64,000 nt of DNA, taken from Fusarium oxysporum f. sp. lycopersici 4287. Its lineage: Eukaryota; Ascomycota; Sordariomycetes; Hypocreales; Nectriaceae. Of the stretch, positions 13,832 to 56,205 are shown piece by piece; position 1 is the stretch's first letter; each line of letters opens with the position of its first letter. Below the pieces are notes generated by a model. That model was not told the DNA's origin and did no database searches. It saw only the letters and a program-made list of their open reading frames with translations. Position numbers and translations under genes: made by a program. The stretch covers positions 3,915,351 to 3,979,350 of the forward strand of contig NC_030988.1 of assembly GCF_000149955.1 (NCBI RefSeq), in the 5' to 3' direction.

Positions 13832-14060
13832 GGGAATCTATCTACCAATATGGACGAAATGTAGATGTAGATAGATGTAGATCTACATCTATCTATCTAC
13901 CAGGGGGCCATGTGGGTCATCTATCTATCTATCTTACCGTCGGATATGTAGGCGAAATGTAGATAGACGCCAAGATGAACACGGAAAGTAGAGGGACTTT
14001 TTTTGGTGCGCAATTCCCTTCCAGAGCAAGGTACCGGTACCCTCACCTTACTACCTACCA
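13832..14060. repeat. direct repeat DR2 with GTAGAT palindromic tract
   Basis: Second copy of the DR1 sequence, expanded by an insertion of GTAGAT/ATCTAC units around 13860-13935 that forms a near-perfect palindrome centred near 13881. Confidence 0.65.
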
Positions 14061-14235
14061 ACACCCCCTGTCGGATCATTTCCCTTCCACCTTTTCCTCA
14101 AGCTCATCGCAAATTTTGGTCAATCTCTTGATACAGCTCCCCCTTTTCAAATGTCAAGTGGCATACCATACAGTCGACTCACAGTATAGAGCATCTGCCA
14201 CAATGCCAACTCCAAGCGACTTGTTCAGTCAATCG

Positions 14236-14335
14236 NNNNNNNNNNNNNNNNNNNNNNNNNNNNNNNNNNNNNNNNNNNNNNNNNNNNNNNNNNNNNNNNN
14301 NNNNNNNNNNNNNNNNNNNNNNNNNNNNNNNNNNN
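14236..14335. other. assembly gap, 100 N
   Basis: Exactly 100 N, likely a default gap length. The expected left end of the adjacent MITE falls inside it. Confidence 0.95.
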
Positions 14336-14742
14336 TGAGTGAGTCAATCTTATTTCCACCTTAATCCGGGGTTTAAAAAATTCTTTAAAAATTCAAACTA
14401 AGCCTAAATTGGCTGTAGTTTTAGTAGCATATATATAAGTCTTAAAATATATTATATACATTTTTTAAGATTTTTAGAAAAATTCTATATAGCTATAAAC
14501 CTTAAAAGCTATTTATACTGTATTTTATACTGTATAATTAAGCTTTACTATATAAAATAAAATAGCAAAAAATCTTAAAGAAATATTTTATAATAAGGTT
14601 AATTATACTATTCTTAAAAATATTTTCTTTAAATTTTTATCTATTTTATTTAGAATAAAAAGATACTATAGGGTAGGTTTTTTAATACTATACAGTGCAG
14701 TGACTCACTCACTTGGATGACCCACTCACTTATCAAACACGT
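14305..14742. mobile_element. pogo-derived MITE 1 (left end in gap)
   Basis: AT-rich non-coding element. The right end is complete (TGACTCACTCACTTGG...AACACGT, then TA at 14743-14744). On the left only the last 11 bases of the end, TGAGTGAGTCA, emerge from the gap at 14336-14346; counting back by the length of the other copies puts the start at about 14305. Confidence 0.7.
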
Positions 14743-14831
14743 TAAACTTAAAGTTATAAGTATTTTTATAAATATTTTTATTTTTATTTTAAAACTTTAA
14801 AATTTATATATAATTTAAGAATTAAATATTA

Positions 14832-15270
14832 ACGTGTATGATAAGCGAGTGGGCCAGACAAGCGAGTGAGTCACTACATTTCTCACCTTAAAAGCCCTTT
14901 TTTAAACTTTTCTTAAAAGGTCAATTTAACTCTGAAATAGCTAAAGAATATAATATAATATATTTAACTACTAAATCTTTATATATTACTTTTATAAAAA
15001 CTATAACTATTTTCTTTATAAAGTTATATAGCAAAGTCTATTTACACTGTGAAATACACTGTATTTTAAGGTTTTATATAGAAAATAAAATAGATAAAAA
15101 TCTTTTAAAAATATCAATTATTGTAATTAACTATACTAAGTATAAAAATATTCTTTTAAGATTTTTAGATATTTTATTTACGAGTTAGAACTCTATAGGG
15201 TAGGCTGTTTTTATACTATACAGTATAGTGGCTCACTCGCTTGTCTAGCTCACTCGCTTATCATATACGT
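14832..15270. mobile_element. pogo-derived MITE 2
   Basis: 439 bp between TA duplications (14830-14831, 15271-15272). Ends have the doubled AAGCGAGTG word. The interior is extremely AT-rich with no coding sequence; ACTATACAGTATAGTG and CTATAGGGTAGG lie near the right end as in MITEs 1 and 3. Confidence 0.85.
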
Positions 15271-15272
15271 TA

Positions 15273-15904
15273 AATTAAATTAAAATAATTATTAAAGTAT
15301 TTTAATACTCCTTATAATATATAAAGCCAAAATAAATTAATTAAAATACTATAAAAATTAAACCTATTTTATAATAATTAAAAAAAGCCTATTATATTTA
15401 ATTTTTCAACTTTTATCTTAAGGCTATTATATATATCTATAATAAAAGGTTATATTTTAATAATATAAATAAAAAAAAGTTATATTTATATAATTTAATT
15501 CTTAACTAGCTTAAATAAGAAAAAGCTAAAATTTGAGATTTTATCTTATATTTTTAAACCTTTTTAAAAAAGCTGAATTTTGGTGAGGAAAGTGTGCGGG
15601 GTCTAGGGGTGTAAGGGGTGTGTCACGGGTCAGGCTCGGGAATACAGGTGAACAGGGAACGCTTTAGGCGGATAGGTTCTATTGCTACGGATAGGCACTG
15701 CCGGCAGGTCAGGCTCTATTGACAAGACGTAGCTCGAGGAGCTACGTTCGGGAGCTATCTGGCGGTCGGTCAAGATCTTCTGCGATAACGTATCGCCACG
15801 TGACTGAGATCCACTTGGCCTATCGGTCTAGGGTAACCTGGTCTGGTCTTACGCTGTGACAGGGTGGTGGGGAAATACGTTAGTCGGTAACGGGGGCCCG
15901 TTAC
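15273..15904. other. AT-rich then mixed spacer, no gene
   Basis: About 300 bp of very AT-rich sequence, followed from about 15590 by sequence of normal composition. No coding region is supported. Confidence 0.5.
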
Positions 15905-16142
15905 TGTTAGATTGGCGGCTGGGAATTGTTGGATAAGTGATAGCGCCTCGATAAAAGAAACATTTATTTTGTGGGTCCCCGGATATATCAATACCGGGTA
16001 GCGGGGAAAACACCTAAAAGGACAGAACAGAGACAGAAGCTCCTGGGGACTAGATCGATGCTCAAGTGTGAAAATAAACCCCATTTTAATTGGGCATCAA
16101 CCCTACTCGCGTATCCAACAATTCCCAGCCACCAATTTAACA
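15905..16142. repeat. LTR-like repeat, copy 2 (complete)
   Basis: 238 bp from TGTTAGATTGG to CCAATTTAACA. The ends are inverted repeats over about 25-30 bp, including GGCTGGGAATTGTTGGATA. Flanking 5-mers are GTTAC and GTGAC, a near-match that would fit a mutated target duplication. It could be a solo LTR or a small TIR element. Confidence 0.55.
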
Positions 16143-16318: not shown

Positions 16319-19300
16319 ATGCAAGGCTTGCCAACCAGGACTGTCAGGTGGTTGCTCTTTAGTGACCTTCATTTTAAGCATCATGACTTGAATCGAGTCT
16401 GGCAGACAGCGAAGTGGATTGTTGCTGAGGCGGAGCGACATCAGGTCAGGAGGGTAGTAGTATGCGGCGATCTGCTAATGAGCCGCACCATGCAGCCAAC
16501 GCATGTTTTGTCTACATGTTATCGCTTCATTGGCTTGCTCAGTGATATCATACCCCAAGTCCATATCTTACTTGGGAACCATGACCTTGCCTACCGTCGT
16601 GACTACCAAACCACAGCCCTCGACGCCTTCAACATTAATCGCCTAGCCCCCTACGTCTCTATTCATAAAGATATTGCCCAACACGAGTGGGATGGCCGAC
16701 GTGTTATAGTTTTGCCATTTCGTGAAGAGCAGAGTGAGTTGACAGATGCTGTGGCTTCTCTGAGTCCTATAGAGGCGAGCAAAACCGTTGCCTTTGCCCA
16801 TCTTGCGATCAACAAGGCCATCACACAGCGGTACGTGGTCGGTGCTGACTTCAAAAACCTATCGGCGGCGAAATCTATCACATACAATGGATTGACGAGT
16901 CCGGATCAGTTTGCCTCACTGGCCCGTACCTTTACGGGACATTTCCACAGCCACCAGACCATCACTCAGAAGCAACCAAATACCAACAAGATGGATCTTC
17001 GGGGAAGCATCACGTACCTGGGCTCACCATTGCAACTGAACTGGAGCGACCTTTACGACGAGAAGCGTGGCATTCTGTTATTCAATCCAGAAACGCTCGA
17101 GCACGAAACGCTTATTAACCCATATGTCATTGGCTATACAACTGCAGATTTACATGAAGTCCTCAACGACCAGGCTAACGAAGAAGCCGTGAAGGACAAG
17201 CACGTAATGCTTCTAGGTGATTTGAGCCATCTCAAGTATGTTATGGCTCGTGACAAGCTCCTCTCACTTGGGGCGCGGAGTGTACGGGACTGGAACCCTA
17301 TGGGCTTTAAATCGCATTCTGGCCGCGCGGCTTTGGGATCATCGGTCCCAGCGAGCGATGCATCCGTCCAGCCCTTAGAGGAGCCCATGAAAATCGACGA
17401 CATAACAGGCGATNNNNNNNNNNNNNNNNNNNNNNNNNNNNNNNNNNNNNNNNNNNNNNNNNNNNNNNNNNNNNNNNNNNNNNNNNNNNNNNNNNNNNNN
17501 NNNNNNNNNNNNNNNNNNNNNNNNNNNNNNNNNNNNNNNNNNNNNNNNNNNNNNNNNNNNNNNNNNNNNNNNNNNNNNNNNNNNNNNNNNNNNNNNNNGA
17601 ATTGGATAACTCTCTCTCCTTGCGACAAGAAGAGTTAATCCGAGTTGGCCAGCGAATGATTCAAGTTTCCCGCGGGCTGGTAGATCAGGATGAAGAAGAC
17701 GTCCAGCTGAACTATGAGGACTTTCTCGACAGGTCAACTCAGGCTATCAGCACGAGAAGCGCTACCGATCTGAAAGGTGCCTCTGATCATACCTTCGCCG
17801 CAGTGCCATCCACTCTTACGATCACCAATTTCCTGAGCGTGCAGAACACCATCACCATTGACTTCCGGTATGATCTTGCGCGTGGACTAACCTTCCTGGT
17901 TGGCGAGAATGGCTCTGGCAAGAGCATGCTGATTGAGGCCATGGTTTGGTGCCAGTTTGGGCAGTGCATTCGCAGTGGCATGGCGGCCGACGATGTTGTC
18001 AACGATATTATAGGTAAGAATTGCTGCGTCACGCTGGAGTTCGCCAACGGTTACGCGATCTCGCGTCATCGCAAGCACAAGAAAAACGGTAACCGTGTTA
18101 TAGTCCTTTTACATGGCGAGGCCCAGCTGCAGTATGATCACCCAGACAAAGGCACGACACAGGAGGCTATCGTCGAGTTGCTTGGTATCAACTACGAAAC
18201 ATACATCAAGACAGTCGTATTGAGCCACGAGAGCGCTGCGAGCTTCTTGAGCTCAAAGGCAGCGGAGAAGCGTAAATTGACAGAGGCAGCTCTTGGAATG
18301 TCAATACTAGATACCTATGGGAAGGTATCGAGATTTCTCCTTAAGGACGTTGATGAAAACGCGAACGCGGTAAATAAGAATATGCAGGACATGGCCCACA
18401 CAATGGAACATACTGAAAAACGTATCGAAGTTTTGGACCGGAAACGAAGAACATGTGAAATGGAGGCGTATAACGCTGCGGCATCTCTTGAGTTGGCGAT
18501 ACAGGACCATGCAGCCGCTAGATTACGAAGTGATGGGCGGTTTGGACACGGAGACCCTGAGCTTGCTATAGACTCCGCAGAGTATGAACAGAAGATGTCG
18601 GCCTCAAGCCAGGGAGTTCAGAATGCAATGGAAACGGCACACTTCGCCGAGCTTACAATGCGTTCCCGCGCAGAGGTCTCGGCATTGACAGATCAGATCA
18701 GCATGGAGGAGAAAAGCCGACAACGCCTAGAAAAGGAATATACCCAAATACGGGGAATGGGGAATGCCGATTTCATGTCATGGCTCGCCGGACTGCAACA
18801 GAAACTCGGTCAACAATTGGAGGCCGTGCCAGCAGATCGTCCCGCCATACACCAAAGGCTCTTATATGCCATGAGAACAGTGGTTATCAGGGGTGCGATG
18901 GGCATATTGGAATTCTTGATAAGCAACTATCAAGCAATCGACACCAAACATCAACAACGAAGAGTGGCCATTGACCGTCTCTGTGAGGACATTAAAGACA
19001 GCAAGTTGCGGCTGCAAAGCCTCCATCTCGAGGTAACGGATATTATTCATCGAAACCAGCTTGCCACTAGCCAGGCCCTTCTGGTGGTCGACAAGCAGCT
19101 TATGGCGGTCGAGCAGGCTCAAAACACATGCGCAGATGTTATGTTCAAGCAGCAGCAGGCCATGTTTAGGCAACAGGAAGAGCTCATATTTAAACAACGG
19201 CAAGAGGCTAAACACAAGCAGCAGCAAGAAGAGGTGATGCTCAAGCGGCACGAAGCAACTACCTATACATGCCTTATCGAAGCCGAGCAGTCATCTCTAC

Positions 19301-20007
19301 ACTCGACTAGTCAGAAATACGATAACCTGGCTCTCAAACTTAAAGAGCTTGCAGCTGATCGCGAGGTTTTTGCCTTCTGGTCCTCTGCTTTAACAAAACG
19401 TAATAAGCGCACTAGTTCCTCAGCCAAATCCAGGGGGGGATCAACGGCCAACTTCCGCGAATATGTCCTCGAAAAGTCAATATCAGATCTCAATAGGTTA
19501 CTTGCACAGATCCTTACGGCGCTGTACGACGACACACGCCACACAAACGCCATCGCAACGGGAATGCTGAGTTCATTGTTCGACTATGAATCAATTGGCG
19601 CCATGGAACATGAATCTGGTTCGCCTGTGCCTGTTCTCGATCAGAGCCTTGCTATCCACCACTCGCTCGCCTATGGGAAGCGATCGGGTGGCGAGCGCAA
19701 GCGTCTCGACCTAGCACTCTTCTTCGCACTGCTACATCTGGATTGGGCAGAGAGCGCGCATCGGGCACATTACCTGCTCATCGATGAGGTGTTTGACAGT
19801 CTCGACGAGGCGGGTCAGGAGGCAGTTGTCAGGTGGTGCATGATAATGCTACAGTCGATGGTCGGTTGGATTGTGATCGTTACTCATAGCCGATTCTTGG
19901 CTGAGCGAGATCCGGAAAGGGATGCGGGTAAGGCCATGGTTATGCGGATAAAGATGGGGAGCCAAGGTACGGAGCTTGTTAATGATAAACAGAGGATTGG
20001 TATCTAA
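16319..20007 (+). CDS. SbcD/Mre11-type nuclease fused to SbcC/Rad50-type ATPase
   Basis: Predicted DNA-end nuclease/ATPase. From the ATG at 16319, the first 370 or so residues are a metallophosphoesterase with every metal-ligand motif: SDLHF (D16, H18), GDLL (D51), GNHD (N87, H88), FAHLA (H161) and GHFHSH (H208, H210). After a 185-N gap (17414-17598) the coding continues as an SMC-like ATPase: GENGSGKS (Walker A, near 17900), a Q-rich coiled coil, FGKRSGGERKR-like signature (YGKRSGGERKR near 19680), LLIDEVFDSLDE (Walker B and D-loop) and VIVTHS. No CxxC hook is visible in the coil. The ATPase part has no good start of its own close to the gap, and the nuclease has no stop before it, so I infer one protein of about 1230 aa. 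With the stated gap length the two frames do not match, so an intron or wrong gap size is needed. Two adjacent genes remain possible. Confidence 0.7.
17414..17598. other. assembly gap, 185 N, inside the fusion gene
   Basis: Falls between the nuclease and the ATPase halves; its true length decides whether they share a frame. Confidence 0.95.
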
Positions 20008-20173: not shown

Positions 20174-22190
20174 ACGTGTTTGACAAGTATGCGCCGCACT
20201 TTTCTGAACCCTTTAACTAGTAATCAATTTAAAACCACTACAAACTATCTAATTAGATAAAACTACTCACTATACTCTTCCCCAGAGATCTCAATTACTA
20301 CCTGACAGGTCCTTGCATTATGCCCGGCCTTGCCGCATAACGTGTATGATAAGCAAGTGGGCCATCCAAGTAAGTGGGCCACTTCTTGTATACCCTTAAG
20401 GTAAAAATTAAAATAAAAACAACACAAGCTATCTAATTAATTAAAACTACTCGCGATACTCTCCTCTAGACGTCTCAATCACTACCTGACAGGTCCTTGC
20501 ATTATGTCCAGTCTTTCCGCATACACCACAGCGCCGAACGCCCGGTCGCGCCCGACCTTTCTTGACCACTACTTCTCGACGATTCGGCCACTACCTGCGC
20601 ATCTACATCCATCTGATCAACTACTTGCCTTGATTCCCCTGCAGTCATCACCCCTCCTTTCTGTAATCGAGTTCTTTTTGCCCTTCGGCGTCGACTAAGT
20701 ATCTCATTTGCTTGTTCAAGGTCATTCATCCTAGCCTCTACTAAGGCTAGCTTATGCATGACTGTGCTTGTTCCCTTCTCAAAACACTTCACAGCTTGAA
20801 TAAGTGACTCTGGAGAGCTGCTATGATGTCTTCTGATTCGTTTCTGTAAGTAGGCAGATTGAGATTGGACCTCAAGAACTGTCTTTGGGGTCTTTGAAAC
20901 CCATGGGGTTAAGGGTTCAGCAACCTCCTCGGAAGGCGTTGGAGTCCGCAGATTCATATCAAGCTTTGAGATCACGCTTTCCGGGTTAAAAGGAGCAAGC
21001 CCAGCTCCTCTAAAACCCCCTTTGATATTTTTTTCGGTTATAGTGGCTTGGAAGGCGGCGTGGAAGGCGGGAAAGAACTCAGTCTTCGAAATATAGGTTA
21101 TAGAGCATCTGATCAGATGCTCTATTTCTCGACCATATGCCTTCTTTAGTGGCCCAAAGCACCCGATATCAAGAGGCTGAAGTAGATGAGACGCATGAGC
21201 CGGAATACAGAGCGTGATGATATTATTCTCCTGGCAATATTTCTCAAAAGCGACGGAGTGGTGACTTTCATGACCATCGAGGATCAGAAGACGATAAGAA
21301 CCAACTGATCGGTCAGTTGTGCATCGGTTGAAGTTCTTAAGCCACTCAAGGCCCAGTTCATTATTTGTCCAGCCATTTTGGCTCGTTGCAATAACCCAGC
21401 CGTTTGGGAGGGTAGGTTCTTCATGCCAGTTGGCAAGGTGATATTGGCCCGCGCCAATGATAAACGGCTCGATCGCCCAGCCTTCCGCATTAATCGCTTG
21501 AATGACTGTAATCCATTCACGATTCCCAGGCTGCACTAATTTTGGTCTTCCAAGCCTTTCTGAACCTGTGACGACCATGCCGCTTGAGATAACACCCATC
21601 ATAAAGCCAGTCTCATCAAAGTTCCAGATATCATCTGATCGGACACCATACTTCGCGATTGCGTTCTGTACGAGCCTAAACCAGCTACGAATAATCGATG
21701 GATCTTCGCATTTAGCTCTCTGGTAGTCATATTTCCGAAATAAACGCGTCTTGAGCTCTGGTTGTCGCTTTACAAAGTTATGAGCCCAGCGCTTGCCGAC
21801 AGGTAACGCATCGCGGTCAGCAAGCAGAGAATTAGCCATTTCTTCCACAAAACGTAATTGTGAGGGAAATCCTCGCGAATCTAGATCAAGAATGAATTGG
21901 ACTATTATCTGCTCTTCCAGATCAGATAGTTTCCGTGACTTTGGAATCCAATCGCGTCGTGATTGAATGCCTTGCTGGCGGCGACGTAGGCGGCGCTCAT
22001 CAATCTCATACATCTTTGCAGCGCGTCGGACACTTAATTTCGGGTTATTCTGAAGGGTCTGAAGAGCAAGAAGGGTTTTAGCTTTAATTGAAGGTTGTGA
22101 CATGATAAATGGTTGAAAACTAATTGATTAGGATTCAGGTAAAATGTATGATGTAAGAGGGAAAGTGTGGCGCATGCTTATTAAACACGT
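20174..22190 (-). mobile_element. chimeric pogo element D/E
   Basis: Outer ends match each other: ACGTGTTTGACAAGTATGCG on the left, and the inverted form ACGTGTTTAATAAGCATGCG on the right, with TA at 20172-20173 and 22191-22192. Inside, at 20340 after a TA, lies a second left end of the other type (ACGTGTATGATAAGCAAGTG, doubled word with GGC triplet). The zinc-knuckle-coding tail occurs twice, at about 20266-20337 and 20447-20523. This fits insertion of E into D at a TA in that tail, followed by loss or exchange of the remainder. Confidence 0.8.
20502..22103 (-). CDS. pogo-type DDE transposase, knuckle frameshifted
   Basis: 533-aa transposase from the ATG at 22101-22103 (MSQPSIKAKTLLALQTLQNN). 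N-terminal HTH (RAAKMYEIDERRLRRRQQG), CENP-B-like HTH, and catalytic motifs NFDETGFMMG, LILDGHESHHS and HLLQPLDIGCFG are all intact. It ends WCMRKDWT because of a frame change near 20550; in the other frame the DNA encodes CGVCGKTGHNARTCQ, the CCHC knuckle of its relatives. Catalytically plausible but without the knuckle. Confidence 0.85.
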   Translation of the reverse strand: MSQPSIKAKTLLALQTLQNNPKLSVRRAAKMYEIDERRLRRRQQGIQSRRDWIPKSRKLSDLEEQIIVQFILDLDSRGFPSQLRFVEEMANSLLADRDALPVGKRWAHNFVKRQPELKTRLFRKYDYQRAKCEDPSIIRSWFRLVQNAIAKYGVRSDDIWNFDETGFMMGVISSGMVVTGSERLGRPKLVQPGNREWITVIQAINAEGWAIEPFIIGAGQYHLANWHEEPTLPNGWVIATSQNGWTNNELGLEWLKNFNRCTTDRSVGSYRLLILDGHESHHSVAFEKYCQENNIITLCIPAHASHLLQPLDIGCFGPLKKAYGREIEHLIRCSITYISKTEFFPAFHAAFQATITEKNIKGGFRGAGLAPFNPESVISKLDMNLRTPTPSEEVAEPLTPWVSKTPKTVLEVQSQSAYLQKRIRRHHSSSPESLIQAVKCFEKGTSTVMHKLALVEARMNDLEQANEILSRRRRAKRTRLQKGGVMTAGESRQVVDQMDVDAQVVAESSRSSGQERSGATGRSALWCMRKDWT

Positions 22191-22208: not shown

Positions 22209-24066
22209 ACGTGCATGATAAGCGAGTGCTCCAGACAAGCGAGTGCTCCAAAAATCCCTCAACCTACACTATCACTATTCAATCAGATATTTCTCAACAA
22301 CCTAATATGCCAGAGTCTTCAAATGAAGCTAAGATTATTCTTGCCCTTCAGGCCCTCCAGAATGACCCAAAATTAAGTCTTCGAAAGGCCGCAGCTATAT
22401 ATCATGTTGACCGCTTTACCTTAAGTCGCCGCCGGCATGGCATTCTTTCAAAGCGTGATACTCTCACAAAGTCACGGTTATTATCTGATCAGGAAGAGGA
22501 TATGATAGTCCAATTCATCCTTGACCTAGATTCGCGAGGATTTCCCTCGCGACTATTATATGCGGAAGATATCGCGAATTCTTTGCGTGCCAACCGCGGC
22601 GCGCCACCTGTCGGCAAGCGCTGGGCTCATAGCTTCATCAAGCGACAACCAGAGCTAAAGACACATAAATTTCGCAGATATGACTATCAGAGAGCTAAAT
22701 GCGAAGATCCGACTATTATTCGTGGCTGGTTTCGGCTTGTAGAGAATACAATCGCGAAATACGGTATCCGATTAGATGATATCTGGAACTTTGATGAGAC
22801 CGGCTTTATGATGGGCGTGATTGAGCCCGGAATAGTCATCACAGGCTCCCACAGGCAAGGAAGACCAAAGCAAGTACAGCCTGGAAACTGCGAATGGATT
22901 ACTGTAATCGAGGGGATTAATGCGGAAGGTCAATCGATCCCACCGTTCATCATTGGTGCAGGCAAGGATCACCTTGCAAATTGGTACCAAGAATGCGACC
23001 TCCCCGGCGATTGGGTTATTGCATTGAGCGAAAATGGATGGACTAATAATAATCTAGGTCTCGAGTGGCTAAAGCACTTTGATCGGGCTACAGCTAAGCG
23101 AACGAACAGTCGCTATCGCCTCTTGATCCTTGATGGTCACGAAAGTCACCACTCCGTCGAATTCGAGGAATATTGCAAAGAGAACAAGATTATCACGCTC
23201 TGTATGCCTGCTCATGCCTCTCATCTACTTCAGCCTCTTGACGTAGGGTGCTTTGGGCCGCTGAAAAAGGCATATGGTCGACAAATAGAGCATCTGATTA
23301 GATGCTCTATAACCTACATTTCCAAGACTGAGTTCTTTCCTACCTTTCACGCCGCCCACCAAGCTGCTATTACAGAAATTAATATAAAGGGAGGTTTCCG
23401 AGGAGCTGGGCTTGCTCCCTTTGACCCAGAAAATGTTATCTCGAAGCTTGATGTGCAGCTACGGACTCCGACGCCTCCCGTAGAGGTCACGATACCATCG
23501 ACCCCTTGGACTGCAAGGACCCCAAAGACAGTGCTAGAGGCCCAATCGCATTCCAAGTATCTGCAAGGAAGGATCAGAAATCATAAGAGCAGCTCCCCTG
23601 AGTCAATAATTGAAGCCGTAAAGCATTTTGAGAAGGCAACAACTGTTCTTATGGATAAGATGGTCTTACTATATGATAGGAATCAACAACTTGAACAACA
23701 AAATAAGACAGTAGGGCGACGCCGGAGGGGAAAAAGGACTAAGGTACAGAAAGAAGGGCCTTTAACTATAGGGGAAACATCACAAGCAATTGATCAGATA
23801 GATATTGATGCGCAGGTAACAGCTGAATCCTCAAGAGGTGGTCGCGGAAGGTCACAAGGATCAAAGCCTCGGCAATGTAGTATTTGCGGAAAGACCGGGC
23901 ATACTGCAAGAACCTGTCAGGAGGCAATTGAGGTCAGTAGGGAATAGGATTGTAATTAATTTTAATTGATCAGATAGGTTGTGGTGTTTTTATTACTCTT
24001 TTTGAGTCTTTAGGTGTAGATTGGTGGAGCACTCGCTTGTCTGGAGCACTCGCTTATCATGCACGT
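22209..24066 (+). mobile_element. intact pogo element F
   Basis: 1858 bp with TA duplications at 22207-22208 and 24067-24068. The ends are identical over about 42 bp by eye (ACGTGCATGATAAGCGAGTG, with AAGCGAGTGCTCCA twice, 17 bp apart). It starts 18 bp after element D/E ends. Perfect ends and an intact gene make it the best candidate for recent or current mobility. Confidence 0.92.
22307..23947 (+). CDS. intact pogo-type DDE transposase
   Basis: 546 aa from the ATG at 22307 (MPESSNEAKIILALQALQND); an upstream GTG frame extends into the terminal repeat and is not used here. Domains: psq-like HTH (KAAAIYHVDRFTLSRRRHG), CENP-B-type HTH to about residue 150, and the DDE_1 core with NFDETGFMMGVI, LILDGHESHHSVEF and HLLQPLDVGCFG. 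A Lys/Arg-rich C-terminus ends in a complete CCHC knuckle, CSICGKTGHTARTC. It acts on the element's own ends in the nucleus. No stop or frameshift was seen. Confidence 0.93.
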   Translation: MPESSNEAKIILALQALQNDPKLSLRKAAAIYHVDRFTLSRRRHGILSKRDTLTKSRLLSDQEEDMIVQFILDLDSRGFPSRLLYAEDIANSLRANRGAPPVGKRWAHSFIKRQPELKTHKFRRYDYQRAKCEDPTIIRGWFRLVENTIAKYGIRLDDIWNFDETGFMMGVIEPGIVITGSHRQGRPKQVQPGNCEWITVIEGINAEGQSIPPFIIGAGKDHLANWYQECDLPGDWVIALSENGWTNNNLGLEWLKHFDRATAKRTNSRYRLLILDGHESHHSVEFEEYCKENKIITLCMPAHASHLLQPLDVGCFGPLKKAYGRQIEHLIRCSITYISKTEFFPTFHAAHQAAITEINIKGGFRGAGLAPFDPENVISKLDVQLRTPTPPVEVTIPSTPWTARTPKTVLEAQSHSKYLQGRIRNHKSSSPESIIEAVKHFEKATTVLMDKMVLLYDRNQQLEQQNKTVGRRRRGKRTKVQKEGPLTIGETSQAIDQIDIDAQVTAESSRGGRGRSQGSKPRQCSICGKTGHTARTCQEAIEVSRE

Positions 24067-26486: not shown

Positions 26487-29466
26487 TATATCGATATCAA
26501 CTGTGCTATCTGGATATATCGATATCGATATAACTCTCTGCCTCTTAAATTGATATCGAGATTGATATCCACCTAAATACCGCTCTCTGATTGGCTGAAA
26601 AGATCTTGTCAATCGATTAGATGATGCAAAGGCTTCTGTCGCATATCACCACTAGGTTCGTGCGACTGCATATGAAACACGGGGCGTACCTTGGGGTCGC
26701 GTATCCGCTTTCACATCTGGCCTGTCGCATAATCCTAACATGAGCTCAAATAGTTGTTCCCAAACACATGGCTGTTCGATTTCTTTTGTTCTTTAGATAA
26801 CTCTCATCAATTGACGGGTGCCATCAATGATCCCTGTGGAGCCAGTTGTCTGACAACTTCTCTCAATTTCAACATCAGCACCACCATCTCAGTACTCGTT
26901 CAAACGGCCCTAGGTATTCTAGCATAATTAGCTTATCCAGGTGATTTATCGACCATGGCATCATCTCAGACCACCGCCGCCTCTACGCCCTCGATTTCGG
27001 ACCAGCCCATTACTGGGACGTCTCTGGACTTTTCCCTCTTCTTCAAAGCAACATATCCTGATGAGGACACCCAGAACACCACCGGCGGGTCACGTAAGCG
27101 CAAATCCAGGGGTATGGTGATGTATCGATGTCTCCATTGCCCTGCCGATAAGCCCTAGGCGAATCGGAAGCGGGACAACGCATGGCATCACGCCCCGCGG
27201 TGCCATGCCGATATTATCTCTTCCCTCGATCGCACGCTCATTGGGGGCAGTTCTGATGTTCTAGATGATGAAAGGGAAGCCACACGCCCTCGGATTGATG
27301 CTTTCTTTCCCTCTCGTTACTCGGATGTCTCTCTCCGCCGTATGTTCGACCGCGATCGGTATTTAGATGCGATAATCAGCCTAATCACACGCCGCCGGCT
27401 TGCCTTCTCAGCAATTAACTGGGATGAGATGCAAGAGATTATGCTAGCAGCTAATCCTGCTATAGAGGACCTTTTAGTGACCAACCGAAGTGCTCTAATG
27501 CGACTGATTGATGCCACATATGAGTTATATTCTTCTCAGCTCATGGCAACTCTTCAAGCTTCCATCTCAAAGGTCCATATCCTCTCTGATCTCTGGACAT
27601 CGCCACATCGCCATGGGATACTCGCCATCTCTGCGCGATGGGTTGATCAGGATCATCGGCCACAAAGGGCACTGCTAGCGATGCCGGAATGTCGTTATAG
27701 CCATAGTGGTGAAACCCAGGCATCTCTAATTATCGATACACTGGCAAAGTACGGCATTGCTTCTAAAGTGGGCTACCATGTAGGGGATAATGCCACTTCA
27801 AATGATACCTGCTTGTCTTATCTCTCACGGCGGTTACGAGAAGACTATGGGGTACGATAGCCCTTCCCTTATCTCTGGATTAGGATTAATTGGTTGCTAG
27901 TTGACGTTTGATCCCTCTAAGCGCCGTATCCGCTGCGTCGCCCACATTATTAACCTATCCCTCCAAGCATTTCTTCTCGCGTCTTCGAAAGAGGCACTAA
28001 TCGCCGCTCTTGATGCCACCGATGATACCTCAAACGATCAGTTGTTTGCACAGTTCTACGACACCTTGCACGACGCCGGACAGACAACAAGAACAGATGA
28101 AGCCCATCAGAGAAGAAGAGCTTTGCGAAGAGGCAATCGTATACTTGAGAACTTCACTGGATGGCAGCATATCGTGCCCCTACGGAAAGTACACAACATC
28201 GCTGTCTGGATACGTAAATCTACGCTTCATACGGCTATATGGGACGATGAAATAAAGCTCCGACTAGGTATAGATAATGCCACACGCTGGATTTCATGGT
28301 ATCGATTGTTGGATAATTTTCTGCGTTACCAATCCCGTGTAAAACAGTTCCTAATTGAACATGATAGAGAGCTTCAAGACGATATCCTGCTAGCTTCAGA
28401 GTGGGAGTTTATTGAACGGACGCATCGTTTCCTACAGCCGTTTGCCTCAACTACGTTGTTGGCCGAAGGGGCGCGATCTACACTCTCCCAATCACTCTCG
28501 ATAATGGATGTTTTATTGCGACAGTACGAGAAGTATAAGGTCGGTGGCGATGTTTTTTCTTTTATCTAATTGATCGGCTAACTAATTGTCTTATTTAGGA
28601 GCTTTATAGTTCAAAGGAAAACCATGATCCCCACATGGTACACTGCATCGATATGGGCTGGTTTGTACTTAATAAGTACTACACCTTATCAGACCAGACA
28701 CCTGTATATGCCGCCGCACTCCTTCTCGATCCCTCGAAACGAAGAAAATACATTGAGCGGAATTGGCAAGAATCCTGGCACGCGCCTGCTATTGCTGCTG
28801 CCCAGCAAATTTGGCTAGATGAATATAATGCCGCGCCAATCCCAGAATCCTTGCGGGTGCCTCTAGATGTGTCCTCTTCCTCTGGGAGGCAGCACAACGA
28901 GCTGGATGAGTTGTTGAGCGATATTGCTGTTACTGGTCCTATCTTAGACGACGCCGATGACTTCGAAATCTTTATTGATGCACCACCGACCCGAATAACT
29001 GGCTCTCCTCTCCAGTGGTGGCTACATCGAGATCAAAGGAAAGCATATCCGCGGTTATCCCGCATGGCAATTGATATCCTCTCAATCCCTCCTGAATCAT
29101 CTGATGTTGAGTCTAACTTCTCATCGGCGCGGCGTACGCTATCATGGGATAGAGAGAGCATGACCTGCGAGAACCTGGCGAAGGTTGAGTGTGTGGGCAA
29201 CTGGATGCGCGAGGGTATCATTGTACCCAAGTCTCACGGTGGCAGGGGCGTTATTTCCAGCGTTGCTGTTGAATTTAGCGTTGAAACAGAGGCAGAGGAC
29301 TTTCTAGATTAGGGTACTTTCTTGTTCTTTCTTCTAGCCTACAAGAATTATATGTGGTTTATCTGGATATCAACCTTGCTAAAGTGGCTATGTGGCTGTA
29401 TGGATATCTACCTGGATATCGATATAAGGGCCAGAATTTCGGTGGATATCGATATACGCAGGTCTG
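26464..29466 (+). mobile_element. hAT element 1
   Basis: Short inverted ends CAGACCTGCGTAT (26464) and its complement ending at 29466, with many ATATCGATATC subterminal motifs on both sides, as expected for hAT transposase-binding regions. No matching 8-bp target duplication was found (GGGCCAAG against AGTTATTG). Confidence 0.7.
26955..29312 (+). pseudogene. hAT transposase 1, one in-frame stop
   Basis: Exons 26955-27851, 27901-28539 and 28599-29312, with 49- and 59-bp GT-AG introns in phase 0, give a 749-codon frame. A BED-type zinc finger (YRCLHCPADKP, then AWHHAPRCH) is interrupted by TAG at 27156-27158; the frame continues untouched on both sides. The catalytic region has HILSDLWTSPHRHG, HVGDNATSND and RCVAHIINLSLQAFL. 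The hAT dimerisation domain (SSDVESNFSSARRTLSWDR) is complete. A TGG-to-TAG change (TpG to TpA) would explain the only defect. Confidence 0.88.
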
Positions 29467-31232
29467 AGTTATTGCAAGCCTCTTAGATAAGAGGAAAAGT
29501 AGGGGCAGGCGAAGCTGGATTGGAAACCATGGCTGGTTCCTAGCAGAGTTGAGGAAAGATAATACGTCCAGTGGGGATATCTGGTGTTGCCGGCTCTGCG
29601 ATGATAAGAATGCACCGCGATTTTTTAATGCTCAGTCGACATCATCGGCATCAGCTCATCTTTTCAAGTTCGTGGTACTTCTCATTTCCGGGCTATCACT
29701 AACGGTTCTTAGAGCTCATGGGATCACCGAGACCTTTGAAGCGGGTTCATCTGGTGACTCTTCAGTTATCGATCTCCAGAGAAATGCATCCAAGAAACGG
29801 CCCGCCTCTTCTTCCTTCCTTCTTCCTCGAGCAAAGATGGCACGGATTAGAGAGCTCTCTGTTGGTTATATCGTTGATTCTAATCTCCCCTTTACTACCT
29901 TTGAGAGTACCTATCTGCAGGAGCTGTTCCGTCAGCTGGACTCTGATCTTTATGCTCAGGTGCCCTGGGGTCGAACTGCAACTAAGAAAGATCTAGAGGA
30001 CATACTCGTTTCAAAGAAAGCGGCTATCAAGGAGGAACTCAATAATACTGTTACCCAGATACATCGACCTCTGGACCTCTCCCAACAGATTAGCTTTTAT
30101 TTCCATTTTTGGTCACTTTATCGATCGGAGACACTTACATCAAAGCCGGCTGCTGGCTTTCAAGAGGCAGATCGGATCTCACGCCGGCGAGAACATCGCT
30201 TACACCATAAGGAACGTGGTCCGTGATTGGGGTATCGATGGTAAGCTCGGGGTCTCGATCTGTGATAATGCGGCCAGTAATGATGTTTGCTTGCGAAACC
30301 TCTACACAACTCTCGATGCCTCGATAACTCGAGCGGACACGGAGGCACGAAGGATGCGATGTTTCGGTCATATTCTAAACCTTGTTGCTCAAGCCTTCCT
30401 CTACGGCGATGATGCAGCTTCTTTCGAATTTCAGTCTGAGGCTTATGACATGTTAGAGCGGGTTGAAGAAGACCTCGAACACTGGCGAGCCAAGGGTCCG
30501 GTTGGGAAGCTTCACAATATCGTCAAGTTCATCCGAGCCTCTCCGCAACGCACCGAAGCTTTCAAAGCACATGCAAGGGAGCAGGAGGAGGTAGACACAT
30601 ATAAGCTTGCAGAAGAATCAACTGCCGAGCTCGAAGTCATACAGAACAACGCTACGAGATGGAACTCGACTTACATGATGATTGAGCGTGCCTTAGTCAA
30701 GCAGTCTGAGCTCAACAGCTTCATTCAGGAGTTAGGGCTAGAAGCAGACGCCTCAAAAAGGGTTCCCACGGCTGATGTTCTGACGTCTGATGACTGGAAG
30801 GTCCTCAGGGAAGTTAGTCATATCTTGGAGCCGGTCTACAATATGACGATGAGAACACAGGGATGGGGTACAAGCGGGGGTCACGGCCGGCTCTGGGAAG
30901 TCATGACAGGAATGGAGTTTGTCCTAGAACATCTCGAAGACTGGAGGGTTCTCTATGAGGATCAAACTGCTGATCCGGCTGCGGAAGAAAGGTATACAAC
31001 CCAGGGGGAGGAAGCTGGACCGGCCATGGGTGTGACACCAACACTTTCGCGGCAACCGACAGTCGGACAAATCCGGGAGCGACCCTCACGGCAGTCACGA
31101 TTACCATCACGACTTCAAGGATACGAAATTACACCATTGCGCCGCCGTCGCGAAACGACTCTTCCAGCTCGCCCACCCGCCAACTCACAGTTTAATGAAG
31201 ATGCGCTTCCTGTAAAGCGTGTCTTGCCTTAA
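29467..31232 (+). pseudogene. hAT transposase 2, truncated and frameshifted
   Basis: Starts without its own terminal repeat directly after hAT 1. A BED-like finger (WCCRLCDDKNAPRFF) leads to AKMARIRELSVGYIVDSNLP; the region that should hold the DLWTS motif is damaged near 30120-30215. The frame then resumes with GVSICDNAASNDVCLRN, RCFGHILNLVAQAFL and NNATRWNSTYMMIERAL. The C-terminal dimerisation domain is missing; the frame drifts into RQPTVGQIRERPSRQSR and stops at 31232. Confidence 0.8.
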
Positions 31233-33883: not shown

Positions 33884-36800
33884 TCACTCTGTATCAGATG
33901 AGATCTGTATATCATCTTGATCAATATCCTCTCCTGAAACGTATTCTGGATCAATCCGCGATGAGATATCAACCAGACCTAATTGTTTCACGAAATGAAA
34001 ATGCTTTTCTGCTGAAAGGGGTTTTGTGAAGCCATCTGCAGGCATGTCTGTTGTAGAAACCCATTGAACTGTAATTTTGCCGTCTTTATGGATCTGTCTT
34101 AGCCAAAAGTTGTGGATATCGATATGTTTTAACTTTGATGTTAGTTGTGGTCGCTCTTTCTGGACCAGTCCTACTGTTTGTTGATTGTCACAGAGGATGC
34201 GTGGTTGGTGTTGTGGATCGAACTGTATCTGTTCGAACAGTCGGTATAGAGCTATAGTCTCTCTCGCTGTGTGAGACAGCGATAACAGTTCCGCTTCAGT
34301 CGTTGACGTGGTTACAGTCTTCTGCTTCGAAGACTGCCACATGATCGCCCCGCTAAACAACTTCATGAGATAGCCCTGGGTGGATTTTCGAGTCTCTGGA
34401 TCATCCGCGAACGATGCGTCGCTTGACTGCTGTAGTACTTCATCATCGCCTGGCTCTACCTCTGTAGCATTATCTACAGAGCCTGAGAACTCGATGGCAT
34501 AGTACTGTGTGGTCTGGAGATATGAGAGAACTCGGTTTGCATACCGCAGGTGTTCAGGTGAAGGGTTCATTGTGTGCTGGCTTAACTGGCTAGCTGCATA
34601 AGAGATATCTGGTCTTGATACTACTGCTGCGTACAGAATCGATCCTACCTTTTCTTGCATCTCTGTGATCTGTTGTATAGTGGCTTGTCCTTCGAAAGAT
34701 TGGGGACGATAGGATGAAGTGAGAGGCGTTGCCGTTCTCATTGACTGATCGATCCCGAACTTGACACCGAGTTTGTTGATATATCCATCTTGGCAGATCC
34801 AAAGCTTCTTAGCATTGAGGTCTCGGAGGATTCTGATGTTGAGGAAGGAGATTGCTTCGCCCAAATCTTTGATCTCGTATTTGCTGTGTACTGCTGCTTT
34901 GAAATTGTTGACTTGTTGAAGGCATTCAGGTTGCGCGATGATGAGAAGATCATCTACGTATAGAAAGAGAATGAGTTGAGTCTCATTATTAATGAGGATA
35001 CAGGGTTCATCTGGGCAATGTTGAAATCCCAGATCTTTAAGAAACGATGCAAGCTCATTGAACCAGAGCTTTGGTGACTTACGCAGACCGTAGAGCGCTT
35101 TGAGCAGTCTCCAGACCTTTCCTGATTGACCATATCCCGGTGGGCATGTGGTGTAGATCTCCTCGTCCATTTCAGCGTTAACGAAGGCGTTCTTGAAGTC
35201 AACTTGGTGACATATCAGCCCAAACGCACAGACGAGAGCCATCAGAATCCGGAAGCTTCGATAAGCACCGGTTGCTGCGTAGATGTCTTCACCAGAGTGG
35301 TGTTGGAGATCACCTCTGACACAGATGCGAGCTTTGTGACGAATGAGGTAACCTGCATCGTCCAGTTTGTAGGTAAAGACCCATTTGAGTGGTAGAACTT
35401 GTTTGCCTTCAGGGTAATCGACTAGCTCGAATGTCCCTTTCTCCTTGAGTGACTTGATCTCGGCGTCTGAGGCTCGTTTGAAGCCTTGTCTCTCAGGATG
35501 CCATTTCAATTGATGCCAAAAGTCAGGAGGTGGAGGCAAGTCCTTTCGTTGGGTTCGTATTGAACGTGCTGATGCGAAAGCGTGGGCGAGTTGCTGTCCC
35601 AGCTTAGCGCGTTCCAATCGTAGAGCATGAGCGTGTCTTCGCGCTTGCTTATGGATTTGTTGCCGAGTAAGGCGTGGTTTGAATGTTTCGATTGCATCTT
35701 GTCCTTTCTGTGACAATTTGATAATCCTTCCAGAAGTTGTTCTGAGATTCTGGAGCACTGAAGCGTCCGTTATCTTTTTCTTTCTGGGTGATCCTAGTTG
35801 TATTGTTGTCTGAGGACGTGGTGATGCTTGGTGGAAAATTACTGGACTCGTGGGCCGCGGCAATGTTGGCGGTTCATCTACGGGTGGTGCAACCTGTATC
35901 TCTCCTGCTATTGATCGTTCAGGTGAGATTTGTGGTGTAAGAAGCAATCCTGGTCGGGATAGTTCTGCTTCCGGTTGTATCGAAACAGGAACCGAAGTTG
36001 CTGTATTCTCCATGATAGACAATGGCTCGATATCCTCTTCTTCGAGATCAACTTCATTGATCGTGATCGCGAGAGTCTGTCCCGATTCGGGAAGAGTTGT
36101 GGCAAGCTGTGGATCGTACATGACTTTCTCATCAACTTGAACATCCCGAGATACAATTACACGATCAAGGTGTGGAACCCAAACTTTATAGATATTGGTT
36201 GCGTCCAACCCGACAAGCCATCCCATGACTGCATTTTCTTGTAACTTCGCTTTGGCTGGTCGGGCCTTCTTGTTCTTGATTAAGACGTAGGCAAGCGAAC
36301 CAATGATTTTGAGATTAGAGAGGTTGGGCTTTCGGCCATGAACCATTTCAAATGGAGTTTGCCATTGTTTTCGTTGAACTGGGATGCGATTGAGGAGGCG
36401 AGTAGCATGAGCAACGATGTAGGGCCAGAGTTTCTGAGGTAGATTTCCCTGTATTCGAAGCTTGCGAGCGATAGCTATGATCACCCCCCCAGAACGTTCG
36501 GCAAGACCGTTCTGATCTGGCGTATCTGGTGGAGATGAGTTGAATGTAATTCCATTCATTGCAATGAAATACTTCCATCTCTTTCCCAGACCCTTTTCGC
36601 CATCCGATTGGATGTATCGCGTAGTGAAACCCCAGTTGTCATTTGTAATGGCTAGAAACTCTTGTGTTATAGAAAGAAGTTCATCTTGATTCTTGTTTGG
36701 GAGGTTAAAGGTGATATGGTAAGCTGAGTAGTCGCAATAGAAATGAGCGACCCAGGAGTCAGCGTTGAATGCTTCCTCCATGTCGATAAGATCAAGGTGT

Positions 36801-38257
36801 ATCTTCTCGAAGGGGTAAGATCCTCTCCACGGTGGTATGCGGGAGATTTGTTGATACGCTTGTCCGAGTTGACATTCAGGACAGAGTTCCGACTTTCGTT
36901 CGAAGTTGCGAGTCCCGAGTGCGACTCCCTCGACTGCTTGAGGCATGTGTTCAAGAGCCTCCTTTCGAATATGGCCTAGCCTTGCATGCCAGGTATCCAT
37001 AGAAGCTGTCGCAACTTGAGGCGTTCTCGATTTAGTAGCCATTGCAAAGGATTGCGCTGCCTCTTTATGAGATTGAGCCCTGAATATAATGTCCTTGATG
37101 TGGGATTCGGCGACTCGAAAAGCACCATGTTTAGTTACTTTAAAGGCATTTGATCCATCTGAATATTCCATCCAACAAGTCCTCGTATTGAAATAAAGTC
37201 CTTGTTGTTCGAGAGAGTGCGTATTGATGAGGTTCCAATGGAATCCAGGGACATAAGCAACGTTCTCGAGTTGAATTAGACCTGCGCCTGTTGGAGTGTC
37301 GACATGGACCGTGACATTTCCTATGCCTGTGAGGTGCGTGCCTGAGTTGCCAAACTCTATGGTTTCATCATCGAGTGGTGTGTAATTAGTGAAGCGAGAC
37401 AGGTCATTGCAGACATGTGTATCCGCACAATTGTCAAGTCGGAAACAATCACCGTACTCGTCTTTTGCGGTTGTGCCAAACGCAAACCTTGACGTAACAA
37501 ATGCGGCTCTTGATTTGGATAGAAATTTATCTGTGCTTGAAGTCTCGTCCTCTGCTAGATGCTTGGGTTGATTCTTTGTAATATCTGACGGCCAGAACTT
37601 AGGCAAGTCAATATTGCTTCTCTTGAGGTTCCTTTCGATGTTTTCTTTAAGGCGTTTGCTTCCCTTGACTGTAGTGATGATTTTCGACTGTATTTGAACG
37701 ATTGGTGTCCATCCCTCTGGCGCACCCGAAGGATTAAGATAATAACACTCAGTGTACTTGTGGGACATGCCGCAGACGCAATTTCGGAAACCCATGTTCG
37801 AGGATGGATGCCCCGTCCGCTGTCTTTTCTGTTGCGGCTGATCCTCTTCGTTCTGCGAATCTGAATCATTGCTATGCTTTCTTCCTTGAAGAGTGGCGTG
37901 GGCTGCTCGTCCTCTAATAGCTTTTTCCTTTGGTGGTGCCATTGTCCTGAACTGCTTAATACAGAATCCGATAGTAATCTTCTTCTCGGAGAGGGTTGGA
38001 CTGAGTTTGCGGAAGGTCTTGAGTGCTCTATTTACTGTATTCTGAGCTTTCTGAACAATGGTGACATCGTCATCTTCACCGTTTTCTTCCTCTTCAGAAT
38101 CAGTCAAACTTGCGACAGTGGCGGAACCGCTACTGGCATGGTCGGGATTAATCTCGTTGAGCGCAGTGAGAAACGCATTTGAGATCTTCTCCATGGTTTT
38201 TGCAGCCTCCTTGACGAGGTTTTTCTCGCTTTCAACCTGAGCTTCCTTGGACTTCAT
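33884..38257 (-). CDS. Copia pol polyprotein
   Basis: 1457-residue open frame. In order: a knuckle-like CVCGMSHKYTEC, an aspartic protease region (LDNCADTHVCND), GAG-pre-integrase with the integrase zinc motif (WHARLGHIRKEAL, CPECQLGQ), integrase core (HLDLIDMEEA, YIQSDGEKG, DQNGLAERSGG), reverse transcriptase (RHKARICVRGDLQ, HQVDFKNAFVNAEM, FLYVDDLLI) and RNase H (SSDASFADDPETRKSTQGYL, TTEAELLSLS). No internal stop. The true start is probably in the gag part upstream; see the next entry. Confidence 0.93.
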   Translation of the reverse strand: MKSKEAQVESEKNLVKEAAKTMEKISNAFLTALNEINPDHASSGSATVASLTDSEEEENGEDDDVTIVQKAQNTVNRALKTFRKLSPTLSEKKITIGFCIKQFRTMAPPKEKAIRGRAAHATLQGRKHSNDSDSQNEEDQPQQKRQRTGHPSSNMGFRNCVCGMSHKYTECYYLNPSGAPEGWTPIVQIQSKIITTVKGSKRLKENIERNLKRSNIDLPKFWPSDITKNQPKHLAEDETSSTDKFLSKSRAAFVTSRFAFGTTAKDEYGDCFRLDNCADTHVCNDLSRFTNYTPLDDETIEFGNSGTHLTGIGNVTVHVDTPTGAGLIQLENVAYVPGFHWNLINTHSLEQQGLYFNTRTCWMEYSDGSNAFKVTKHGAFRVAESHIKDIIFRAQSHKEAAQSFAMATKSRTPQVATASMDTWHARLGHIRKEALEHMPQAVEGVALGTRNFERKSELCPECQLGQAYQQISRIPPWRGSYPFEKIHLDLIDMEEAFNADSWVAHFYCDYSAYHITFNLPNKNQDELLSITQEFLAITNDNWGFTTRYIQSDGEKGLGKRWKYFIAMNGITFNSSPPDTPDQNGLAERSGGVIIAIARKLRIQGNLPQKLWPYIVAHATRLLNRIPVQRKQWQTPFEMVHGRKPNLSNLKIIGSLAYVLIKNKKARPAKAKLQENAVMGWLVGLDATNIYKVWVPHLDRVIVSRDVQVDEKVMYDPQLATTLPESGQTLAITINEVDLEEEDIEPLSIMENTATSVPVSIQPEAELSRPGLLLTPQISPERSIAGEIQVAPPVDEPPTLPRPTSPVIFHQASPRPQTTIQLGSPRKKKITDASVLQNLRTTSGRIIKLSQKGQDAIETFKPRLTRQQIHKQARRHAHALRLERAKLGQQLAHAFASARSIRTQRKDLPPPPDFWHQLKWHPERQGFKRASDAEIKSLKEKGTFELVDYPEGKQVLPLKWVFTYKLDDAGYLIRHKARICVRGDLQHHSGEDIYAATGAYRSFRILMALVCAFGLICHQVDFKNAFVNAEMDEEIYTTCPPGYGQSGKVWRLLKALYGLRKSPKLWFNELASFLKDLGFQHCPDEPCILINNETQLILFLYVDDLLIIAQPECLQQVNNFKAAVHSKYEIKDLGEAISFLNIRILRDLNAKKLWICQDGYINKLGVKFGIDQSMRTATPLTSSYRPQSFEGQATIQQITEMQEKVGSILYAAVVSRPDISYAASQLSQHTMNPSPEHLRYANRVLSYLQTTQYYAIEFSGSVDNATEVEPGDDEVLQQSSDASFADDPETRKSTQGYLMKLFSGAIMWQSSKQKTVTTSTTEAELLSLSHTARETIALYRLFEQIQFDPQHQPRILCDNQQTVGLVQKERPQLTSKLKHIDIHNFWLRQIHKDGKITVQWVSTTDMPADGFTKPLSAEKHFHFVKQLGLVDISSRIDPEYVSGEDIDQDDIQISSDTE

Positions 38258-55211: not shown

Positions 55212-56205
55212 GTATGTATGTATGTATATTTTTCGTCCGGGGGCCGTGAGGCCCGTAAAGGCCCCTATTGGGGCACAGGACGTGCTAAGCTAGAGTCTCT
55301 AGTGCTAAAATCTAAGTAAAGCTTTCGCAAATTACAGAACAGACCACTATCCAGCATATCATCGGCTCAAAAGCGCGTCCTGTCGAGCCTGTTACCCGTC
55401 AGCGGGATGACCAGGTGCGGCTATCATAATGGTAGCCGCTCTATCGGTCAGTCTTTAGTGAGACTGGGGAGAGGGCGGCGGCATGACCGCACGAGCCGGC
55501 CAAGCCCATGAGAATAAAGAAAAGAAACAAAGAAACAGAAGGGAAAGGAAGCTAAAAGGAGAGGAGGAGACGCAAATGCATCTCCGATCTGCCTCGTTTA
55601 GTAACGAGTGCATATCCTTTCGAAGAAGGCGCTTGACTTGGTCAACTTGATGTACTTGTCGAAGTTCCTTCCTATTGCTCAGGAACGGAGGTGATCTACT
55701 AGGTTTCGAAAGCTTCTTTTGGTTTCTGTCTCGCCACCTTTCGCAGGTATGCTAGTGTCGGCTGAGCGCCTTCCGGTTCTGGTAGCGAGGACGCCGCCTT
55801 TGCTAGTTTATCGGCTTGTTCGTTGCCGGGAATGTCCGTGTGTCCAGGTATCCAGCGCTTTTGTGTAGCTCCGTGTGATGCAGCTATCGCCCGGAACTCG
55901 ACAAGGACTGCTTGTGAAGAATCAGACGGTGAGCCCCGTAGGCATGTGGCGGCTGCCAGGTTGTCTAGACAGACTACAATGTCCCGTGCCGCCGATCCTG
56001 GGGGGTTGAGAGCGGCCTTAAGGCCCTCCAGTGCTCCTGTAAGTTCAGCATTAAAGACCTCGGCAGGTCCAAGACGGCCCGAGCCGTCGCAGATGGAGAG
56101 GTGCTGCTGGTGAATGGCGAAGCCATAGCTGGCTGCTCCCTCGATGATAGAGACTGGTTGCGGTTCAAAAGTAGTATAGGGGGGGTTATTTTTAGTGCGA
56201 CGCAT
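55212..56205 (-). mobile_element. 5'-truncated LINE with RNase H
   Basis: Minus-strand non-LTR fragment. The 3' tail is (TACA)n, seen as TATGTATGTATGTATGTATA on the plus strand at 55210-55229, in place of a plain poly-A. Six-base ACTTAT occurs on both sides (55206-55211 and 56206-56211), a likely target duplication. About 490 bp of untranslated 3' sequence precede the coding remnant. Confidence 0.75.
55699..56205 (-). pseudogene. LINE RNase H domain fragment
   Basis: 168 residues ending the LINE ORF2. RNase H acidic and His motifs are seen: FNAELTGALEGLKAA (Glu), IVVCLDNLAAATCL (Asp), KRWIPGHTDIPGNEQADKLA (His, Asp). This is the C-terminal domain of Tad/I-clade fungal LINEs. Reverse transcriptase and endonuclease are missing because of 5' truncation. 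Confidence 0.8.

Follow-up and report, generated by a model that had tools for sequence, protein, structure and literature searches.

The stretch of DNA analysed here, hereafter the window, comprises 64,000 nucleotides of the 61.24-Mb genome of Fusarium oxysporum f. sp. lycopersici 4287 (contig C3, positions 3,915,351-3,979,350). It contains a metallophosphoesterase half-gene of the Mre11/SbcD type and a half-gene for an ATPase of the structural maintenance of chromosomes (SMC)/ATP-binding cassette (ABC) type, which stand on either side of a 185-N assembly gap (Table 1). A sequence-only reading of these letters had proposed that the two form a pair resembling SbcD-SbcC within one gene, nuclease first and ATPase second. 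The frames and motifs confirm the pair, and a second copy of the gene in the same genome, on contig C70, confirms the single gene. The window's two halves lie in different frames, and direct reading across the N gap cannot join them. The C70 copy contains no N and reads as a single frame of 1,196 amino acids from its ATG. At every base that the window does show, 1,095 in the nuclease half and 2,409 in the ATPase half, the C70 copy is identical to it, and where the window has its gap the copy carries 87 in-frame coding bases (29 codons) without a stop; the window's run of Ns is 98 bases longer than the C70 sequence at the same place. Because the gap reads through in the C70 copy, the window gene is a true SbcD/Mre11-SbcC/Rad50 fusion, with both domains in one open frame and no intron needed, and the same read-through rules out two separate genes with an intergenic gap. 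The stop codon in the gap that the sequence-only reading had named as evidence against one gene was not seen in the open C70 copy; the check covered stops, not promoters or terminators.

The public annotation hides this fusion: the model FOXG_19270 (870 amino acids) starts past the nuclease core and leaves out an internal piece. In sequence order, the nuclease is followed by a capping and helix-loop-helix region and then by the ATPase. The predicted model of a homologue, P0057, has helices within residues 389-427 after a disordered linker, and its fold matches include Staphylococcus aureus SbcD, Escherichia coli SbcD and E. coli SbcC.

Fungal relatives and the coil without a hook

Homologues were gathered with two single-protein searches and one profile search, which returned 48, 153 and 303 matches, from which the best 48, 120 and 120 were taken. 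Excluding the window's own three pieces, this yielded 191 proteins, many of them from metagenomes. One-protein homologues, which the sequence-only reading had suggested looking for, occur in other fungi: 98 of the 191, the C70 protein included, pass a strict pattern test that requires a single chain to contain both halves, and motif counts among these 98 carry a selection effect. The named fusion sources are filamentous ascomycetes, namely Hypocreales, Sordariales, Diaporthales, Xylariales and their relatives, Magnaporthales, Colletotrichum and, from another class, Phyllosticta. The order and class names are my own assignments, Phyllosticta being placed in the Dothideomycetes. The fused form of Mre11/Rad50 is widespread in this major fungal group, where it makes a second and probably independent DNA-end machine.

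Active-site columns are conserved across the deep divergence of the family (56-row alignment; 98 members). The coil differs from that of the controls, 6/6 of which carry a CxxC hook there: a CxxC is found in the coil of only 4/98 fungal fusions and is absent from 94/98, the window protein included. A hydrophobic stretch occurs at a steady position in the fungal coils (median 0.61 of coil length). With Kyte-Doolittle means over 19 residues, 10/98 members reach 1.6 and the median is 1.27; the E. coli SbcC coil reaches 1.41. Given this moderate strength and the comparable stretch in E. coli SbcC, I make no claim that the hydrophobic tip of the rod anchors the protein in a membrane.

In a 45-row family tree the window protein groups with those of F. 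tricinctum, F. heterosporum and one metagenome protein (99%), far from those of F. globosum and F. fujikuroi. Fusarium copies stand in several places, and Phyllosticta is nested with Diaporthales. This scattered pattern results from lateral transfer, from old paralogy combined with losses, or from both processes.

Mre11/Rad50 in one chain is a kind known since 2011. The part of the report by Yoshida, Claverie and Ogata drawn on here (PMC3175470) describes fusions in Mimivirus R555 and twelve others, spread over mimivirus, a phage, bacteria, one moss, two slime moulds, one diatom and two prasinophytes. The moss, slime mould, diatom and prasinophyte cases make the rule invoked by the sequence-only reading, that eukaryotes keep Mre11 and Rad50 separate, less than universal. 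The fungal proteins resemble the R555-type fusions, as that part presents them, in having one chain with the nuclease first, the ATPase second and a helix-loop-helix and short linker between, in a host that has a separate canonical pair (so in all but one of their cellular cases), and in a sporadic distribution and a sequence distant from canonical forms, with lateral transfer suspected. The same source places the end of Mre11 ~28 Å from the start of Rad50, which a short linker can join, and the fusion's helix-loop-helix and linker agree with that argument. Unlike what was reported there, the fungal family is large, and 94/98 members lack the coil CxxC; the main text of PMC3175470 does not discuss the hook, and a term search of that main text returned no fungus by name. 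No report of a fungal fusion was found in the open-licence literature, judged by titles and abstract openings. What is new here is a fungal, mostly hookless, family-wide fusion branch, apparently undescribed.

Table 1. Features of the fusion gene and its surroundings in the window; counts out of 98 refer to the fungal fusions, and row counts to alignments.
Feature	Position	Strand	Support or remark
Nuclease half, Mre11/SbcD-type metallophosphoesterase and linker start	16319..17413	+	365 amino acids up to the gap
D-x-H motif, metal ligands D16, H18	16364..16372	+	sequence; each in at least 90% of the rows of the 21-row alignment
D51 of GD motif, metal ligand	16469..16471	+	sequence, 21-row alignment; GD[LV][LF] in 95/98
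GNHD motif G86-D89, metal and catalytic residues	16574..16585	+	invariant in 21 and 56 rows; GNHDL in 95/98
H161, third-block metal ligand	16799..16801	+	invariant in 21 and 56 rows; motif in 98/98
GHFH motif G207-H210, metal ligands H208, H210	16937..16948	+	sequence, 21 rows; 97/98
Assembly gap, 185 N	17414..17598	.	filled in C70 with part of linker and helix-loop-helix
ATPase half: helix-loop-helix end, N-lobe, hookless coiled coil, C-lobe, stop TAA	17599..20007	+	coiled-coil region ~350 amino acids (by homologue model); stop codon at 20005-20007
Walker A GENGSGKS	17902..17925	+	sequence, 21-row alignment
ABC signature RSGGER	19681..19698	+	sequence; pattern in 91/98
Walker B LLIDE and D-loop SLD	19774..19806	+	sequence; D1118, E1119, D1122, L1124 (numbered as in P0057) each in at least 90% of the 56-row alignment
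H-loop histidine, VTHS	19885..19887	+	sequence; tight pattern matched 57/98 only
AT-rich DNA directly upstream of the fusion	14001..16000		26-33% GC
DDE_1 transposase frame	20502..22103	-	related frames also present
DDE_1 transposase frame	22211..23947	+
hAT-like frames	27342..31232		28635-29312 matches Dimer_Tnp_hAT, the only frame there scanned
Copia-type polyprotein frame	33884..38257		with RVT_2
Indolepyruvate-decarboxylase-like thiamine pyrophosphate enzyme	56237..57934		under the model's cut-off
Bacterial-type phosphoenolpyruvate synthase	58736..61216	+	TIGR01418 pyruvate, water dikinase, 1110 bits, above cut-off

Descent of the two halves

Family models speak against a derivation of either half from the resident Mre11 or Rad50, in line with the SbcDC- or phage-like character that the sequence-only reading had given the gene. 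The best PHROG families of the fusion are phage SbcD/SbcC. PF04152, TIGR00583 and TIGR00606 were not among its matches at E up to 0.1; TIGR00606, the rad50 model, matches the control Rad50. Named-phage sequence relatives, among the matches listed, are ~23-30% identical.

Three known systems invite comparison. The gp47/gp46 pairs of T4-like phages and the SbcD/SbcC pairs of herelleviruses are the sequence relatives behind the best PHROG families; unlike them, the fusion is one chain with a hookless ATPase half of ~800 amino acids, whereas four phage control ATPases measure 571-633 amino acids and have a CxxC hook. The canonical fungal Mre11-Rad50-Nbs1 (MRN) proteins have a similar fold in each half and the same active-site logic, but Mre11 and Rad50 are separate genes there, Rad50 has a CLLC hook, and Mre11 has an Mre11_DNA_bind domain that the domain scan did not find in the fusion. 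Bacterial SbcCD shares the fold, as the structural matches above indicate, but consists of two proteins, and the fusion scores weakly on SbcCD family models (TIGR00618 gives 70 bits, its cut-off being 478.5).

Relatives were sought in a viral collection, where at least 400 stretches among 600 returned encode relatives and 80 were kept, and in a prokaryote collection, where 2/184 pattern matches encode a relative. The scan patterns came from the fungal alignment, which keeps the prokaryote scan narrow; patterns of this kind also selected the 80 viral loci. By these patterns no frame with both halves was found in the 82 loci (80 viral, 2 prokaryote), 9 of which have no matching frame at all. The viral rows of the trees are subsets of 56 nuclease and 42 ATPase frames.

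In a 41-row nuclease tree, which omits the long row P0040 and row P0176, the fungal fusions form one clade (100/100). Two metagenome proteins, P0037 and P0038, branch beside it (100/100) and may indicate that the family reaches beyond ascomycetes. Three canonical Mre11 rows form a separate clade (100/99), and the fusions adjoin T4-like phage proteins with modest support (93/77). For the ATPase half, Bacillus phage Goe3 grouped with the fungal clade at 95% in a quick tree; a careful tree with a second herellevirus, from which two rows without a usable head (GAP32 gp46 and one out of 12 viral rows) are omitted, did not recover this joining, and holding the group together was no worse in the approximately unbiased (AU) test (p 0.533). 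Neither this herellevirus grouping nor a T4-like one (p 0.424) was rejected. An origin from the fungus's own Mre11/Rad50 is thus opposed by the family models and by the nuclease tree; the ATPase tree is too weak to add to this. Viral or phage kinship of the fusion is likely and I claim no donor: the prokaryotic or phage origin put forward in the sequence-only reading is plausible, but its donor is not fixed, as no AU test rejected an alternative.

A candidate single-chain DNA-end machine

I consider it probable, at about 0.62, that the gene encodes a one-chain, non-canonical, virus- or phage-like Mre11-Rad50 (SbcD-SbcC) machine, as an accessory beside the fungus's own separate pair. Direct support comes from the one frame, the active-site and ATPase motifs, the fold similarity of the homologue, the loss of CxxC and the lack of a canonical-family match. 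The protein would best be read as an ATP-gated, Mn-dependent DNA-end or hairpin nuclease that works beside canonical MRN; its nuclease activity, dimer architecture and substrate I infer. Two chains would pair via their nuclease domains and, when ATP-bound, via their ATPase heads, giving a two-nuclease, two-ATPase head as in SbcCD. The helix-loop-helix that ends the nuclease half may dock on the root of the coiled coil, its own or its partner's, and the fusion would thereby fix stoichiometry and assembly. ATP binding would shut the heads over the nuclease and hydrolysis would open them, upon which the Mn-dependent nuclease could act on DNA ends, hairpins or protein-blocked ends by nicking or trimming them. 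With the hook absent and helices bearing the hydrophobic stretch near the rod tip instead, no long-range zinc tethering is expected, and other contacts may hold the rods together. If active, such a natural single-chain, hook-free Mre11-Rad50 would be a simple test object for the role of the hook and of separate subunits. The fusion is also a genetic variable possibly uncounted in fungal repair studies.

Several observations weigh against this account. N gaps interrupt the window copy and two of the other three copies in the genome, and only C70 is gap-free. As many as 93/191 homologues fail the two-halves test, being partial, split or outside the patterns. Ilyonectria robusta has its two halves under successive locus tags, AUP68_10060 and AUP68_10061, so that either the annotation splits the gene or some family members are unfused. 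The whole-chain model has a predicted template modelling (pTM) score of 0.46, and the modelled protein is the homologue, 61% identical, not the window protein. The nuclease AU test does not reject fusions sister to canonical Mre11 (p 0.127), nor does it reject a herellevirus pairing (p 0.158). In the careful ATPase tree, which has 29 rows, a weakly supported branch (81/70) leaves the fusions on one side together with canonical Rad50, a single row whose end branch measures ~6 changes per column. Of the placement outside the canonical clades that the sequence-only reading implied, the nuclease part stands, the fusions lying outside the fungal Mre11 clade, whereas the ATPase tree cannot decide.

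The same chain could instead be a captured viral or phage recombination enzyme in a genome-defence or mobile-element toolkit, which would attack hairpins and foreign ends, such as those of viral DNA or transposon intermediates, instead of serving repair. The fusion is surrounded by DDE_1, hAT and Copia-type elements, its distribution is patchy and multi-paralogue (Phyllosticta with Diaporthales, scattered Fusarium copies), and SMC-like nuclease systems serve bacterial defence; LmuB of Lamassu matches the ATPase half (3.9e-12), and a Lamassu structure stands at rank 49 among the fold matches. However, the best PADLOC matches (mad3, 4.2e-19, and LmuB, followed by weaker ones) fall in the ATPase half alone and may reflect shared ATPase features, the nuclease half reaches no better than E 0.029, and no partner gene was identified at the window locus. 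I regard this explanation as unlikely, and the old organelle or defence-type complex offered by the sequence-only reading found no direct support.

For the organelle part, a mitochondrial targeting peptide is suggested in a few relatives only. Other phage-type enzymes operate in mitochondria, and presequence-like N-terminal extensions rich in R/K/S/T occur in the distant relative P0037, in P0176 (Phyllosticta) and in P0186 (Discula), with acidic residues at 0/65, 1/51 and 0/41 positions, respectively; P0176 and P0186 share a similar stretch. Yet the first motif lies within 12 residues of the start in 110/120 proteins, the window's included, the long extension of P0131 has 3 acidic residues and that of P0124 has 5, some of the extensions may come from translation of leader DNA, and a basic KRxRR-like stretch, a possible nuclear signal, occurs in 46/98. 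A mitochondrial end-processing enzyme of phage-like descent seems distinctly improbable.

Four copies, the canonical pair and the neighbourhood

A genome search found four copies of the gene, with 100% identity between their ATPase halves along 801 amino acids; the two besides those of the window and C70 have N gaps of their own in the nuclease half. When the 64-kb window is set against the surroundings of each other copy (60-70 kb), collinear blocks span it at the three other places, with identities of 98.1-100%, mostly ~99.9%, the C70 comparison extending to window base 55,962, where the DNA taken there ends. The copies therefore lie in large segmental duplications, and these blocks rule out that the gene reached its four places by moving on its own. 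Residence of all four in duplicated DNA, together with the many partial homologues on record, would suit a dying fusion, an accessory gene duplicated without maintained function in this strain. Against it, 4/4 copies are open wherever sequence exists, with 1 mismatch among the aligned bases in one copy and 0 in the other two, and the active-site columns persist across the family. Decay seems quite unlikely.

The available part of PMC6131394 gives chromosomes 3, 6, 14 and 15 of F. oxysporum f. sp. lycopersici 4287 as lineage specific and, for an onion strain, a concentration of duplicated genes in lineage-specific regions. From their numbers and lengths I infer that contigs C3 and C6 are the lineage-specific chromosomes 3 and 6.

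The canonical rad50 of this genome is open and has two exons. The canonical mre11 locus is present and interrupted in this assembly (L031, G000:C1:577248-578717): it matches TIGR00583 at positions 1-175 and 236-404 only, with 176-235 unmatched, and a TIGR00583 search of the assembly found no further canonical mre11 place. Presumably the missing block is the one with the later catalytic histidines. In its place stand 195 bp of non-coding repeat DNA of subtelomeric type, the same sequence as is found close to contig ends; a 186-bp part of the insert recurs with 100% identity at six other places, one of them at most 1.9 kb from a contig end with telomere repeats. The insert could reflect a genuine lesion or an error of assembly. 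That a hookless fusion of viral descent circulates in filamentous ascomycetes as accessory cargo able to assume the processing of ends, and here, in four copies, supplies the nuclease where mre11 appears broken, is very improbable.

The gene sits in a transposon-rich part of contig C3, and the location among transposons noted in the sequence-only reading is accurate. A transposase frame lies directly downstream of the fusion and antisense to it in 4/4 copies. I take the DDE_1 transposases of the window to be Tc1/pogo, Fot-like elements. The AT-rich DNA directly upstream is possibly repeat DNA mutated by repeat-induced point mutation (RIP). Farther along the window, the decarboxylase-like frame adjoins that of the bacterial-type phosphoenolpyruvate synthase, an enzyme that is, to my knowledge, unusual for a fungus.
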